Virus record (IMG/VR): IMGVR_UViG_3300027708_000108 | Coordinates: 1 to 48,722 of that record | Direction: 5' to 3' (one strand) | Length of the DNA stretch: 48,722 bases | Source: a virus | In this document: in pieces, positions 22,718-37,031 of the stretch | Numbering within the stretch: the stretch's first letter is position 1 | How the letters are laid out: each line of letters begins with the position of its first letter | Translations under genes and position numbers: made by a program | Notes under the pieces: generated by a model | The model's input: the letters and a program-made list of their open reading frames with translations, nothing else | The model's database searches: none | What the model was told of the DNA's origin: nothing

Positions 22718-23581
22718 TCACCTCGGCTTCCGGATTGGGGGAGGTGACATCGGTATCGCCGCCTGGGTGGCATCGAGGTAATGCCGCCTGACCAGAGATG
22801 GGTGGGAATGCTGAAGGAAGTCCGTGGCGGCTCCCGGCTGCACCTGTTCGATCGCGGTGGCGGCTGCACGGCGGAACCACTTGGTCGATCCCCCGAACCC
22901 ATGCTGGTCGAGAAACTCCCTCCACATGCGGAACGCCCTACGCCTGGGGAGGCACCACTTGAAGAGGGTGCCATCCTCACTGTGCTGGAACAACTTAGCC
23001 ACAGCTACCTGTGTCCTCTCTGACAACGCCCGCACCAGCGGCTTGCCGGTCTTGGCCGCTGTGATAGCTATGCATTCATTCCGGAAGCTGTGCTTGGTCA
23101 GGGCATGAACGTCACTGAACCGCATGCCCGAATCGTAGGCAATGCCGGCCCACGCTGGGATCACATCACACCTCCGCAGTGCCATGCGAGAGCTGATGCG
23201 AGTCTCGTCTGTCTCCGCTGCGGTAATCAGCTTGTCGAGCGAGGCCAGTTCCCACGTTACGGGAGGGGCAAAGCTAGCACGAATTTTCCGCACCCGAGCC
23301 GGATAGATCTCGGTCATCCCCTGCTCGTAGGCAAACCTCCAAAGCGTCAGCAATTCCCGGCGAATATTGTGCCTGGTCGTGGCCCCAACGTCGAGGCTCG
23401 CAAGAAACTTGTTCACTCTTTCTGGCGAGAGTTGACAGATTTCCGATAGGCCCATATCTTTCGCCCGTCTACACGTTCGCAGAAGGGACTCTGTGTATCT
23501 CGGGCTGCATTCAACAGCCGCAAGATAGCGGTCTAGTAGATCAAGGATGTTCATTATGTTGCAGAAAAGTGTTGCAACCAT
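22718..23581 (-). CDS. int: Tyrosine integrase
   Basis: 287 residues with the start at 23581 (GGGAG 7 nt upstream) rather than a longer frame opening at 23647. N-terminal SAM-like core-binding domain about 10-100, catalytic domain about 110-270. Candidate active-site residues: R154 in SGMRFSD, K177 in TAAKTGK, R237 in STKWFRR, H258 or H260 in LQHSHPS, nucleophile Y268 in RRHYLD. The usual His of H..R is Lys234 here. It lies next to the tRNA-derived core at 23792-23838, the expected arrangement for site-specific integration into a tRNA gene. The C-terminal signature reminds me of planctomycete recombinases (inference). Confidence 0.9.
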   Translation of the reverse strand: MVATLFCNIMNILDLLDRYLAAVECSPRYTESLLRTCRRAKDMGLSEICQLSPERVNKFLASLDVGATTRHNIRRELLTLWRFAYEQGMTEIYPARVRKIRASFAPPVTWELASLDKLITAAETDETRISSRMALRRCDVIPAWAGIAYDSGMRFSDVHALTKHSFRNECIAITAAKTGKPLVRALSERTQVAVAKLFQHSEDGTLFKWCLPRRRAFRMWREFLDQHGFGGSTKWFRRAAATAIEQVQPGAATDFLQHSHPSLVRRHYLDATQAAIPMSPPPIRKPR

Positions 23582-23729
23582 TTCTCGGCTCCCGGTATGG
23601 GGATCCTTCCAAGGTGTTGGTGCGATTTCGCTTCGTGCAAAATGCACGGCGAAGTACAGTCCTTGTAGGGGGACGCACTCTCAAGCTTGGCCCCTTCAAC
23701 CGGTAGCCCCCAACCCGTAGGAGAGAACC
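23582..23729. promoter_or_regulatory. Divergent int/exonuclease control region
   Basis: 148 nt between the integrase start and the exonuclease start. It carries a hairpin-capable inverted repeat at 23631-23654 (core CGTGCA-AAA-TGCACG) and a site AGGAG before the ATG at 23730. No confident sigma-70 promoter was found. Integrase arm sites or an operator could be here; unproven. Confidence 0.35.
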
Positions 23730-24671
23730 ATGCCAGCCGTCAGGGTTTCACCCCCTGACGCAACGGGAAAATCACCAGCAGCTATCGACCACCGGCTTCA
23801 TAAGCCGGGTGTCGCCGGTTCAAGTCCGGCCGCTGCTATTGATTCTGCCGATTGCGTCATCGACCACTGCCCGAACGAGGAATACCACGCTCGGCCAGAG
23901 GTCAGTGCCTCCCAGCTCAAGGAGCTGGCGCTTTCGCCGGTTGCATTCTACCGGCGGTTCATTGCGGGGGAAGCGCCCCCCAAAAGCAGCGATGCCCTCA
24001 GTTACGGGAGCCTTCTCCACACTTGGGGGGAACTCCGTGACGAGCTGTTCTGGCCGCGCGTCAGGGTTGCCGGTGCTGATGTCCTCACGGCGACCGGACA
24101 GTTTGGCAAGGCGGCCAAGGAGTGGCAGGCAACACTCCCCGCTGATGCCATTCCCCTGTCACCATCGGACTACAAAAAACTATGGGATCAGACGAGGCAA
24201 ATCCTTGCCAACTCTGCGGCCCGCGAGCTGATCGAAGAGTCGGTCGATCGTGAGTTCAACATCCGGTGGTCGTGGCATGGCCACGCCTGCCGGTGCCGCG
24301 TCGATGGTGCGACCAGTGAAGTCTTCTATGACTTCAAGACAACGAGTGATCCCGATCCCAAGTGGACGTTTCACTCGAGTGTGAAGAAGTGGCGCTACGA
24401 TCTTCAAGCGGCCTTCTATGGGTCTGCCGCGGTGGCTGCTGGATGGCCGGCCCACCCGATGGTGTTCATCATCACCAGCACCACCGAGCCGTATCTCTGT
24501 CATGTAGCGCAGCTCCCTGCTGCCCTCATGGCCAAGGGCCGAAGCCGCTGCCTCGCCCTGCTGAAGGATCTCCAGCGCCGCAAGGATTGGGATTGCTGGA
24601 CGCCGGCCGACTACGGCCGGATCAATGAGTTGTTCGTTCCTCGTTACATGCTTGAAGGGAGTGATCTGTGA
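23730..24671 (+). CDS. RecE/lambda-exo-like PD-(D/E)XK exonuclease
   Basis: 313 residues. Start ATG 23730 is fixed by AGGAG upstream and an in-frame TAG at 23715. Nuclease motifs: D in CRCRVDGAT, DFKTTSDP ((D/E)xK) and YDLQAAFYG (QxxxY) at about residues 190-235, typical of RecB/RecE-type 5'-3' exonucleases that make 3' overhangs for annealing. The next gene is an ERF annealing protein, so the pair forms a recombination system. Odd: residues 21-36 are encoded by a tRNA 3' half (HKPGVAGSSPAAA), and no ATG, GTG or TTG codon occurs in frame between it and the domain. Confidence 0.8.
   Translation: MPAVRVSPPDATGKSPAAIDHRLHKPGVAGSSPAAAIDSADCVIDHCPNEEYHARPEVSASQLKELALSPVAFYRRFIAGEAPPKSSDALSYGSLLHTWGELRDELFWPRVRVAGADVLTATGQFGKAAKEWQATLPADAIPLSPSDYKKLWDQTRQILANSAARELIEESVDREFNIRWSWHGHACRCRVDGATSEVFYDFKTTSDPDPKWTFHSSVKKWRYDLQAAFYGSAAVAAGWPAHPMVFIITSTTEPYLCHVAQLPAALMAKGRSRCLALLKDLQRRKDWDCWTPADYGRINELFVPRYMLEGSDL
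23792..23838 (+). other. Putative attP core: 3' half of a tRNA(CAU) gene
   Basis: Reads as tRNA from the anticodon stem to the discriminator base: stem CCGGC, loop TTCATAA (anticodon CAT), stem GCCGG; variable GTGTC; T-stem GCCGG, loop TTCAAGT, stem CCGGC; acceptor strand CGCTGCT and A. The D-arm is missing, so it is not a working tRNA; it is the piece an integrating element carries to restore the target tRNA. The stem is unlike initiator tRNA, so the target is elongator Met or Ile(CAU). An ATCGACCAC direct repeat flanks it (23784 and 23859). Confidence 0.8.
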
Positions 24672-25381
24672 ACATGATTGCAAAGCCGATGCGGATGACG
24701 GTGTACCGCGAGAAGTCGCCCGAAACAGCAGCGCTGTGCAAGGCGATGTGTGAGGCATCATTGAAGTTTGGGCCGCTGCACTTCGACTCGATCGGGATCG
24801 ATGACGCCGGTCGCGAGTACAGCTACGCCTCTCTGGCCGCCATCAAGAAGGCGACCAGCAGACCGTTGGCTGAAGCCGGCATCTGGATGCATGCCGACTA
24901 CGGGTTTCACGATTCGACACGCTACATCTCGGTGACCATTGAGAAGGATAACGAGTGGGTCACCAGCTACATGGACATCCCCGAGGCCACAACCCTGCGG
25001 AAGCGGAAGGGAAACATGACACAGCTCCGCAGGGCTGCGATCGAGGGGCTGCTCGACCTCGCTGCCGAGCAGGACACCGATGCCCGTGGTGTCGAGGACA
25101 CGCCGGCAGAGGTTGCTGCGGAGGTGGCCGAGTTCGCGAAGGAGCAGCTCGAAGCCTGGGCCGGCCTCAAGCAGATGGCCAGCGATGCGATCCAAGCAGC
25201 GGCCAACCAGAAGACGGTCGAGGCGAAGATCGAGAAGGTGCGTCAGAAGGTCGAGGCCGGCGAGATGAACCCCGCCGATCTGCCCGAGCTGGTGCAGCTC
25301 GCGGAGAAGCGGATCAAAACGCTCGAGGTGGCGGCGGCCAAGGCAGGCGTGAAGCCCGAGCCGGTAGGAGGTGCTAAGTGA
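24668..25381 (+). CDS. erf: ERF-family single-strand annealing protein
   Basis: 237 residues from GTG 24668 (AAGGGAG upstream; ATG 24674 is an alternative). Residues 1-150 show the ERF pattern: a lead helix with FGPLHFDS, YSYASLAAIKKATSRPLAEA, then GIWMHADYG and a conserved strand around ISVTIEKDNEWV. The C-terminal part is Ala/Glu/Lys-rich helical. ERF proteins bind single-stranded DNA and anneal complementary strands. Overlap with the exonuclease gene (GTGA) indicates coupled production of a two-component recombinase. Confidence 0.85.
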   Translation: MNMIAKPMRMTVYREKSPETAALCKAMCEASLKFGPLHFDSIGIDDAGREYSYASLAAIKKATSRPLAEAGIWMHADYGFHDSTRYISVTIEKDNEWVTSYMDIPEATTLRKRKGNMTQLRRAAIEGLLDLAAEQDTDARGVEDTPAEVAAEVAEFAKEQLEAWAGLKQMASDAIQAAANQKTVEAKIEKVRQKVEAGEMNPADLPELVQLAEKRIKTLEVAAAKAGVKPEPVGGAK

Positions 25382-33536: not shown

Positions 33537-34295
33537 CTAGCAATATGTCAGCAGCTCGCCGGCCTGCTGAAGTTTGAAGAACGAACGATACCCACCGATC
33601 TTTGGCCAGCCGGCGAGGCCCGCCTCGACCGCCCACTTTGCCATGATCCCTGTCGGAAAGGTTCGCTTGGCACCACGCTGCCGCATCGTCCAGAGGGCGA
33701 TGTCATCGTAGCTCTCGCCTACCTCCCGCAGCTCGATCATCCTGCGAACCATCCGCCTCTCGTCCTCATCGACACGGTAGTAGCGGCGCGGCTTCTCGCC
33801 GCAGACCCGCCAGCCTACCGCACATCCCTTCGAGGCGGGCAGACCCTGCTCCATCCTCGAATGAAATACAGCCTCGGTTCTCTCCCGTGCCAGCTCCCGC
33901 TCCAGCTCTGCCATCGAGAGCAGGAGGTTGCGGATCAGCCGGCCGATCGCATCGTTCGCCCCGATGGGGTAGTCCAATGCGTGGATGGTGACGCCCCGGT
34001 TCTCAAGCTGCTCGATGGTACTGACGCCATCGAGCAGCTTGCGAAACAAACGGTCGAGCTTGCTGACCACGATGTGATCACCAGGGCGAGCCATCACGAA
34101 GAGCTGGCGGCCGGCCTCCCGTTCAGAGAACGGTTTGCTGGCAGAGGTGGCGGCATCGTAGTGGAAGCCACCCCACCTCACGCCCTCGGGTTCGAGCATC
34201 CGCCGCCAGTGATCCTCGGTGCGTGACGCCTGCACCGAACGGGTCATCGACTGCTTCCGTGTGGAGTGGCGGCCGTAGCCGTAGCAGAAGTTCAT
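33537..34295 (-). CDS. Serine recombinase (resolvase/invertase family)
   Basis: 252 residues from ATG 34295 (GGAGG 8 nt upstream), not the longer frame from 34637. Catalytic domain: YGYGRHSTRKQS with nucleophile Ser11 and Arg9, VVSKLDRLFR, then the linker helix MAELERELARERTEAV, and a C-terminal HTH-like DNA-binding part (about 165-250). It could invert, resolve or integrate DNA. The phage already has a tyrosine integrase at the att site, so this one may act in DNA inversion, dimer resolution or a second mobile function. Coupled (ATGA) to a LexA-like gene. Confidence 0.8.
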   Translation of the reverse strand: MNFCYGYGRHSTRKQSMTRSVQASRTEDHWRRMLEPEGVRWGGFHYDAATSASKPFSEREAGRQLFVMARPGDHIVVSKLDRLFRKLLDGVSTIEQLENRGVTIHALDYPIGANDAIGRLIRNLLLSMAELERELARERTEAVFHSRMEQGLPASKGCAVGWRVCGEKPRRYYRVDEDERRMVRRMIELREVGESYDDIALWTMRQRGAKRTFPTGIMAKWAVEAGLAGWPKIGGYRSFFKLQQAGELLTYC

Positions 34296-34549
34296 ACGAA
34301 CGCCCTCCAATCGAACTCGATGGCTCTCGCGCCGTGCTGCGCCACGACCACGCCCTTCCGCCGGCAGCTCTCGACCAGGCAGGGAACGTAGCCGGGGCTG
34401 GCATAGCCCAGCTCGCTGGCGATCTCCCGCATGCTGGGCTGGTAGCCGTACTGGTTGATCCTCCACGCGATGAACTCCAGCATCTTCCGCTCGGTATCGA
34501 GCAGCTCGGCGCCGGACTTCGCATGCTTCACCACTGATTGTCTCGACAT
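34292..34549 (-). CDS. LexA-type winged-helix DNA-binding protein (no protease domain)
   Basis: 85 residues from ATG 34549 (GGGAG 6 nt upstream). LDTERKMLEFIAWRINQYGY, then QPSMREIASELGYASPGYV and RRKGVVV...ARAIEF matches the N-terminal DNA-binding domain of LexA. The self-cleaving protease domain is missing, so it would not be inactivated by RecA in the usual way, unless it works with host LexA. Likely a repressor; operator candidates with CCGATATCG core sit at its own operon and others. It overlaps the recombinase gene by 4 nt. Confidence 0.75.
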   Translation of the reverse strand: MSRQSVVKHAKSGAELLDTERKMLEFIAWRINQYGYQPSMREIASELGYASPGYVPCLVESCRRKGVVVAQHGARAIEFDWRAFV

Positions 34550-34572
34550 CGCAATCTCCCTTCGTGTGTGTG

Positions 34573-34647
34573 TTACCGACTGAAACAAGCAATCCAAATA
34601 AAAACCACCGACGCACCAGCCACCAGCATGAAGTCATTGGGTGTCAT
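34573..34647 (-). CDS. 24-residue putative membrane peptide
   Basis: ATG 34647 overlaps the stop of the 34644 gene (ATGA) and reads MTPNDFMLVAGASVVFIWIA then four residues to TAA at 34573-34575. Nearly all of it could span the membrane. Coupling plus membrane character supports a real small protein, but its short length leaves doubt. Confidence 0.35.
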   Translation of the reverse strand: MTPNDFMLVAGASVVFIWIACFSR

Positions 34648-35460: not shown

Positions 35461-36714
35461 TCAGTCCAGCCGCCGCAGCACATTGCCACGGCGTTCAATC
35501 GTCCGCTCTTGCGTCCGCTCCACGTTCGTGAGCGGATAGCCCCACTTGCCCACGCCACCGCAGTCGAACCGGCTTCCCGGCTGAACACGGTGGCGCTGAT
35601 AGTCCCGTCTGAATTCATCCACGTTCGGATAGCAGTACGGTTCCCCGATCGTGGCGTAGCCCACCAGCGTGGCCTTGCCCTGCCCCGTGCGGATGATGCC
35701 CACGCGCTTGCCGACCACGCTATCGAGCGACCTCGATGCCCGTGTCTCGACCGTCTTCACGCCGGCCATGATCATGTCGGTATAGGGGGCGTCACCATCG
35801 TTGATGTTCACGCCCCTCGTCGCAGTCTCGAACTCGATCGCCCGCTGCTCCATCCTCGACAGGCTGGCCTCGATAGCGGCGCGGCTATCGGCAGCGGTGC
35901 CGTGCTTGACCCGATGTCGCAGCTCATCGAACATCCGCGCCGCTTCGGCCGGCGCCTCGACTTCGAGCCGGTCGATACCGACACAGCTCGAATCGATCCG
36001 GCCACGGATACGCTTGGCGTAGCGGGCCACATGCCCCTCGCCTTCCGCCTTGTACCGGCAGTGGTTGACCGCGACCGAACAGCTATCCGCGGAATCGAAT
36101 GGGTAGCGGTGGGCCTCGCTCTGCGCCCGCATCATGTGAATCCACGGCCGAACGTAGGCACCTTCGCTATCCGCACAGAACCGCTCAATGTGGTCGAACG
36201 CTTCCGCGATGCGGGCATGCCACTGCGGTGTACCCACCTTGGCATACTCGCCGCTCGAACCGATGGCGATGTACTGGTAGCAGCCCTCGATCAGACCCGT
36301 CAGGCGGTCGAGCGATTCGTGCATGTGCCAGACCATCATCATCCGCTCGCCGGGGATGAACGCATCGGCTTCGAGCATGGCGCCGCTGAAGTCGAGCCGC
36401 ATCTCGTCATTGGCCAGCTCATCGCCGTCGATGACATCCGGCACCACGACCACCGCCTGCGGGCAACGCCGGCAGATGTCGGCCGCCCACCGCACGAACC
36501 CATCGACATCCATCGGTACGCCCGATCGCCATGCAGAGAACGCGCCATTGTCGAGCAGCAGGATTCCATCATCGGCCACCAGGCGGATGGCGTCATCGAG
36601 CTGCCGGCCCAGCCGGTTGCGGGTGGCGTAGGACAGGCAGAACGATTCCCCCTTGAGCTGCTCCAGCAGATGGATCGGCGTCAGGGGAAGGCCGAACACG
36701 GTACGTTTCTTCAT
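35461..36714 (-). CDS. DpdA/TGT-like transglycosylase fused to an ASCH-like domain
   Basis: 417 residues from ATG 36714. Residues 1-245 look like a TGT-type base-exchange enzyme, as in phage DpdA that puts 7-deazaguanine derivatives into DNA: LLLDNGAFSAW (D55), VVVPDVID, VWHMHES (H130), YIAIGSSGEY (G152), WIHMMRA (H193) and FDSADS (D207, D210). Residues about 300-400 (PYTDMIMAGVKTVETR, ending WGYPLTNVER) resemble an ASCH/PUA-like fold. Such a C-terminal fusion might read modified bases or nucleic acid. Family assignment comes from motif recall. Operon partners are small unknown proteins; no preQ0 synthesis genes are visible. Confidence 0.65.
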   Translation of the reverse strand: MKKRTVFGLPLTPIHLLEQLKGESFCLSYATRNRLGRQLDDAIRLVADDGILLLDNGAFSAWRSGVPMDVDGFVRWAADICRRCPQAVVVVPDVIDGDELANDEMRLDFSGAMLEADAFIPGERMMMVWHMHESLDRLTGLIEGCYQYIAIGSSGEYAKVGTPQWHARIAEAFDHIERFCADSEGAYVRPWIHMMRAQSEAHRYPFDSADSCSVAVNHCRYKAEGEGHVARYAKRIRGRIDSSCVGIDRLEVEAPAEAARMFDELRHRVKHGTAADSRAAIEASLSRMEQRAIEFETATRGVNINDGDAPYTDMIMAGVKTVETRASRSLDSVVGKRVGIIRTGQGKATLVGYATIGEPYCYPNVDEFRRDYQRHRVQPGSRFDCGGVGKWGYPLTNVERTQERTIERRGNVLRRLD

Positions 36715-37031
36715 TGCGTCACCCATCCCTGCTCGATGGCCATCATCTCGCGGTACAGCTCGCCTTCCGCCCGCTCGCCGCCCAGCTCCAGCCCGCCACG
36801 CTCCACCCACCACTGGGCCTGCTTCAGCGCACGGAACGTGGCCACGCCTGCGCCACCGCCATGCCATCCGTACCCCTTGATGTAGTAGGGTCGCAGTGCA
36901 GTGGGATGGCCGCAGTGCAGGACGGTGACGCCCGCGTAATCGGGGTGCGTCCACGCCACGTTCACGGTTGTGCGTCCCTTTCCCTTGTGGCCCACCCATC
37001 CCTTCGACACGGTTAGCTTCGAGCCTCTCAT
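36711..37031 (-). CDS. Small protein upstream of the DpdA-like gene
   Basis: 106 residues; AAGGGAG before ATG 37031. Basic and Gly/Trp/Tyr-rich N-terminus (TVSKGWVGHKGKGRTTVNVA, PYYIKGYGWHGGGAG), then a helical end (ALKQAQWWVERGG). No family recognised. It is coupled to the TGT-like gene (ATGA), suggesting shared function or stoichiometry. Confidence 0.5.
   Translation of the reverse strand: MRGSKLTVSKGWVGHKGKGRTTVNVAWTHPDYAGVTVLHCGHPTALRPYYIKGYGWHGGGAGVATFRALKQAQWWVERGGLELGGERAEGELYREMMAIEQGWVTQ

Follow-up and report, generated by a model that had tools for sequence, protein, structure and literature searches.

An attachment core inside a phage exonuclease gene as the probable basis of a lysogeny-coupled OFF switch in Planctomycete phages

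Results

We analysed a 48,722-bp virus record (hereafter the window) from a phage assigned to freshwater Planctomycetes. The attP core of this phage lies within the first codons of its exonuclease gene, so that integration would sever the gene from its start signal and excision would restore it. We consider a lysogeny-coupled OFF switch, thrown by site-specific recombination, to be the best explanation of this arrangement, and a probable one. A switch of this kind had been proposed for the window in an original prediction made from its letters, and that interpretation is largely supported overall.

While the phage is circular, exonuclease translation would begin at the ATG at 23730, pass through the tRNA-Met core and continue into the nuclease domain. 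Recombination between this core and the tRNA-Met gene of the host is predicted to be carried out by the divergent tyrosine integrase. The leader, comprising the start codon, the ribosome site and probably a promoter between the integrase and exonuclease genes, would then remain with the integrase gene at attR. Behind the restored host tRNA at attL would stand the nuclease body, with the annealase and replication genes after it. Read-through from the tRNA promoter would yield no exonuclease in the lysogen, because the host tRNA contributes a TAG in this frame without any start codon, and usable internal starts are almost absent from the body. Excision would rebuild the gene. We infer that the nuclease is silent in the lysogen and expressed again on excision, and the benefit may be to shield the lysogen from nuclease made under the tRNA promoter. 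Directly between the two genes, no promoter of the sigma-70 type was recognised; if a promoter does lie there, the whole downstream operon would lose its native promoter on integration.

Organisation of the integrase–exonuclease region

The region contains the following features:

22718–23647, minus strand: tyrosine integrase, divergent from the exonuclease (phrog_1, E = 3.8e-13; PF00589, E = 4e-5, below the PF00589 cut-off)
23718–23720, plus strand: in-frame TAG 5′ of the exonuclease start (from sequence and reading frame)
23719–23723, plus strand: ribosome site AGGAG, 6 nt 5′ of the ATG (from sequence)
23730–23732, plus strand: exonuclease start codon ATG, on the integrase side of the core
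23739–23759, strand not assigned: inverted repeat GTCAGGG...CCCTGAC directly past the start codon, a recurring structure
23777–23838, plus strand: tRNA-like element, made of the core and a partial 5′ acceptor strand and without a D arm (Rfam RF00005)
23790–23838, plus strand: attP core, the 3′ half of the host tRNA-Met(CAU), 49 bp, read in the exonuclease frame as HRLHKPGVAGSSPAAA
23730–24671, plus strand: RecE/exonuclease VIII-like PD-(D/E)XK exonuclease, split by the core, 313 aa (phrog_412, E = 4e-43, from aa 34; PF12684 from aa 59)
24330–24344, plus strand: catalytic motif DFKTT (D-x-K), codons 201–205 (from sequence)
24381–24383, plus strand: GTG, the first in-frame ATG, GTG or TTG past the core, beyond the catalytic motif
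24668–25381, plus strand: Erf-like annealing protein (phrog_2324, E = 1e-7), whose start overlaps the exonuclease stop

With its phrog_412 and PF12684 matches and its D-x-K motif, the exonuclease is a RecE-type nuclease by family; 5′–3′ activity on double-stranded DNA is predicted. Placement of the tRNA(CAU) 3′ half within exonuclease codons 21–37, as originally predicted, was borne out by Rfam (29.7 bits at 23777–23838, gathering threshold 29) and by matches to host tRNA genes (23790–23838). AGGAG and the ATG at 23730, named there as the start signals, were confirmed in the sequence, and the upstream in-frame TAG is present, three nucleotides away from the position 23715 given for it. The claim that no start-type codon occurs between the core and the interior of the nuclease domain also held, since the 195 codons up to the GTG at 24381 contain no ATG, GTG or TTG. 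ARAGORN reported no complete tRNA for the window; the element is therefore a tRNA half, and its identity as a phage tRNA gene was ruled out. Ribosome sites comparable to that of the window lie 6–8 nt 5′ of the start in L003, L016, L008, L017, L030 and L035.

Host attachment sites and prophage junctions

An exact copy of 43 nt of the core (ACCGGC...CCGGCCGC) was present in 33 Planctomycetota MAG loci, and in 32 it is enclosed by a complete tRNA-Met gene. The 5′ half of this host gene (GTAGCTCAGTTGGTTAGAGC) is absent from the phage. An attB in tRNA-Gly(CCC) was likewise confirmed in host genomes. In the host sequences, both usable frames are closed within the tRNA-Met gene (GTAGCTC, GTTAGAGC), and in the tRNA-Gly gene a TAG of the exonuclease frame falls precisely on the edge of the core (CGC TAG CTT), where Gly-type phages have CAG (L029, L051 and L059) or TAT (L053).

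A Planctomycete MAG, G198, appears to carry the predicted lysogen junction, an attL in which the nuclease would be OFF. The host side of this junction (G198:C271) consists of MutS, RpoN and molybdopterin-enzyme genes followed by a complete tRNA-Met. The exonuclease body starts 65 bp past the tRNA (A2 profile, E = 6.5e-92) and precedes Erf-like and replication-initiation genes; the order of exonuclease body and then Erf-like gene is common to the window and this lysogen. Read backward, the exonuclease frame reaches the tRNA's own TAG (GTAGCTC), no ATG, GTG or TTG stands between that TAG and the body, and the first such codon lies 162 codons past the core. The phage core matches the 3′ half of the tRNA exactly, and integration restores the tRNA, as its completeness at this attL indicates. 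Neither a second core nor a matching integrase was found in the G198 bin, so no full prophage is seen and the contig could in principle be chimeric.

The MAG locus L090 carries an attR-like junction. The core there is joined to non-tRNA sequence on its 5′ side and to a flank of host type on its 3′ side, and the integrase beside it is 53% identical to that of the window. Two related integrases lie in the same direction beside this single junction (L090, 1600–3666), perhaps as remnants of tandem prophages.

The search for integrated relatives and the comparison of their att sites, which the original prediction had put forward as a check, yielded one attL (only in G198) and one attR-like junction (only in L090); no genome carried both. 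The nuclease body behind a restored host tRNA is seen as anticipated at G198:C271, and integration at the tRNA core agrees with the intact tRNA of empty hosts and with the L090 junction beside its integrase. No lysogen retaining the exonuclease start was encountered, the G198:C271 body being without one, and the junctions sit at the tRNA core, not elsewhere.

Lysogens were rare in the searched genomes (1 of 72 in the family), and an exonuclease profile search of 32 attB-bearing MAGs found no prophage. None of the viral contigs searched contained a full host tRNA junction (Met or Gly), which places those contigs in the free-phage configuration at the site. G202, G008, G049 and G016 (second tRNA-Gly core) were rejected as prophages of this kind, their junctions having no exonuclease or window-type integrase. 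Junctions of other integrated elements were observed at tRNA-Gly(CCC) in Planctomycete genomes (L166, L168, L170 and L172), with a common 5′ flank motif (GGACTTAGAACTACG) in L166, L168 and L172.

The effect of integration on the protein depends on where translation begins. Were a non-standard codon downstream of the core the true start, integration would leave the protein unaffected. The nuclease domain match does begin past the core (PF12684), and ATT codons occur before the exonuclease body in G198, but the long run without ATG, GTG or TTG past the core in the window and the good ribosome sites before the upstream ATG in group I phages make a downstream start extremely improbable.

Recurrence of the in-frame core across related phages

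The architecture with a core inside the exonuclease gene was found in ~25 distinct related phages and involves three tRNAs (Met-CAU, Gly-CCC and a reversed Val-GAC with a putative attB). A 34-nt core is present in 20 viral contigs, and the exonuclease frame passes through it in all except L011. Searches with the exonuclease body added variant Met cores (L030, L035 and L045) and tRNA-Gly(CCC) cores (L029, L051, L053 and L059), and a search with the integrase added L187, L192 and L199. Homologues of the window integrase adjoin the core in the phages with this architecture. In L199 (about 2837–2923), the exonuclease frame runs through the reversed 5′ half of tRNA-Val(GAC), an odd polarity for an att core.

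In all 22 distinct phages tested in detail, the exonuclease frame was open through the core from an upstream start (21 ATG and 1 GTG). The stop-free run 5′ of the core had a median of 120 nt in this frame vs 46.5 nt in the other frames (p = 2e-6, uncorrected for relatedness). The linkers, 69 to 99 nt long, occur in eight lengths that are all multiples of 3 and keep one register in 20 of the 22 phages; in the remaining two, L008 and L030, an alternative frame is open, each with its own upstream ATG. Given these upstream starts, longer stop-free runs and shared register, the in-frame passage of the exonuclease through the core appears to be more than chance. Of the 22 phages, L008 and L051 alone have a GTG or another common start codon within the core, which could permit an escape from silencing. 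The upstream start is less sure in group II, because its ATG overlaps the integrase start and the ribosome site is at least 11 nt away or absent in most members.

Most relatives have hairpins past the exonuclease start that differ in sequence and could be an operator or RNA element; in group II, these hairpins also hold the ribosome site of the integrase on the other strand. The core might accordingly be kept in frame for lytic expression, with a tRNA-like mRNA structure or the post-start hairpin controlling exonuclease translation or RNA processing. The Rfam tRNA-like match of the window, with its partial acceptor strand, and the recurrence of a hairpin 5–10 nt past the start with changing sequence are consistent with such a role. 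It would, however, explain neither the depletion of downstream starts described below nor the presence of host-identical halves of different tRNAs, and ARAGORN detected no tRNA-like fold in most relatives, so we regard a lytic role of this kind as very unlikely.

Among relatives without a core, L032–L034, L041/L073, L056 and L058 have no window-type integrase on their available DNA; L040/L057 and L074 have the integrase and no recognised core. Rfam found no tRNA-like core in L052, L057 or L074; a T-arm pattern search revealed a Gly core in L052 and L055 despite the null Rfam result for L052. The A3 search of genome contigs recovered no relative.

Depletion of internal start codons in split exonucleases

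We counted possible start codons (ATG, GTG and TTG) from the start of the exonuclease body to the catalytic motif and compared them with those after the motif. In the split genes, their density was 2.4% before vs 7.1% after the motif and was lower before it in 23 of 23 genes (Wilcoxon p = 1e-7). Unsplit relatives had 5.2% before and 8.9% after the motif, with a lower density towards the N-terminus in 9 of 10, showing that part of the depletion is general to the exonuclease family. Between body start and motif, methionine accounted for 16 of 3485 codons in split genes vs 37 of 1519 in unsplit ones, and GTG made up 18% of the valine codons in split genes vs 44.5% after the motif. The difference between split and unsplit genes persisted after collapse to clusters, which handles relatedness roughly (p = 0.016). 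Other window genes showed no comparable gradient, and depletion was slight in L051/L053.

Start loss could also be an accident of a compact genome, in which attP sits beside the integrase gene, the next gene merely overlaps it, and the loss is unselected, a repressor silencing the early genes anyway. Phage attP sites normally adjoin the integrase gene, and the leader peptide sequence is not conserved among the relatives here. The best argument for an accident comes from a natural variant. In L052 (3186–3938), and at the matching position in L055, another gene has been inserted before the exonuclease and continues the reading frame of the leader and tRNA-Gly core; this gene is HNH-endonuclease-like by eye and has no Pfam match. 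The split position is therefore tied to the core and not to the exonuclease alone. In both phages the exonuclease again has an ATG of its own, with a remnant of the core end still present, and it can thus be freed from the split.

Against an accident stand the preservation of the frame with three tRNA targets and eight linker lengths, and a depletion of internal starts beyond the level of unsplit relatives. We consider an accident unlikely, since the depletion in split genes, together with the recurrence of the architecture with three tRNAs, suggests selection for the OFF state over accidental overlap. We lean towards a selected, recurrent switch in which integration separates an early recombination-replication operon from its start and probably also from its promoter. 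The host tRNA would give the stop, and internal starts would have been purged from the nuclease gene, leaving transcripts that read through from the tRNA promoter unable to yield nuclease.

Relation to known systems

An attP inside a phage gene is already known. Archaeal SSV-type elements have a tRNA-derived attP inside their own integrase gene, which is split on integration. The window shares the tRNA-derived site in a gene of the element split by integration; its integrase gene stays whole, whereas the neighbouring nuclease gene is split. In inovirus XacF1, attP lies inside ORF12, which integration splits in two (PMC5666396). XacF1 resembles the window in having attP within a phage ORF divided on integration, but it is a filamentous phage that uses host XerC/D at dif and a possible regulator gene, whereas the window phage has its own tyrosine integrase, tRNA gene targets and a recombination exonuclease.

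In mycobacteriophage BPs and its relatives, attP lies inside the repressor gene next to the integrase gene, and integration alters the gene product by removing 33 C-terminal residues, whereupon the repressor becomes stable and active (PMC4557955). The original prediction had likened the window to this integration-dependent immunity. The likeness stands for an attP within a phage gene beside the integrase gene, with a product that would differ between virus and prophage. It does not extend to the gene, an immunity repressor in BPs and an exonuclease VIII-like nuclease here, nor to the outcome, since BPs trims the C-terminus to an active prophage form, whereas the window gene loses its start and first codons and is predicted to be silent. 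Compared with RecE/exonuclease VIII-like phage exonucleases (phrog_412, PF12684), the window gene shares the nuclease family and the annealing-protein neighbour; in ordinary members, by contrast, the start lies immediately ahead of the nuclease domain and no att core is present. In the open-access literature searched, we found no recombination nuclease that loses its start by integration, and the combination of start removal with a gene of this type is in this sense without a found precedent.

Integration into a tRNA gene puts phage genes behind a host promoter, and how the first of them is kept harmless is seldom asked. In the proposed switch, the recombination event itself would double as the control, with no regulator. 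A recombination nuclease would then join repressors among the targets of integration-coupled control, and start removal would join C-terminal trimming among its means; a prediction testable in any cultured Planctomycete lysogen follows. Depletion of internal starts may also be usable as a signature for finding other prophage-silenced genes.

Additional observations

Besides the tyrosine integrase, the window carries a serine recombinase (integrase/invertase-like, phrog_95/125) at 33537–34637 and a queuine tRNA-ribosyltransferase-like gene (phrog_887) at 35461–36999. We count the presence of this second recombinase among the points that weigh against the proposed switch. G236, a single-contig Planctomycete chromosome, contains three distant exonuclease relatives at separate sites (L123, L146 and L149), two of them with identical scores.
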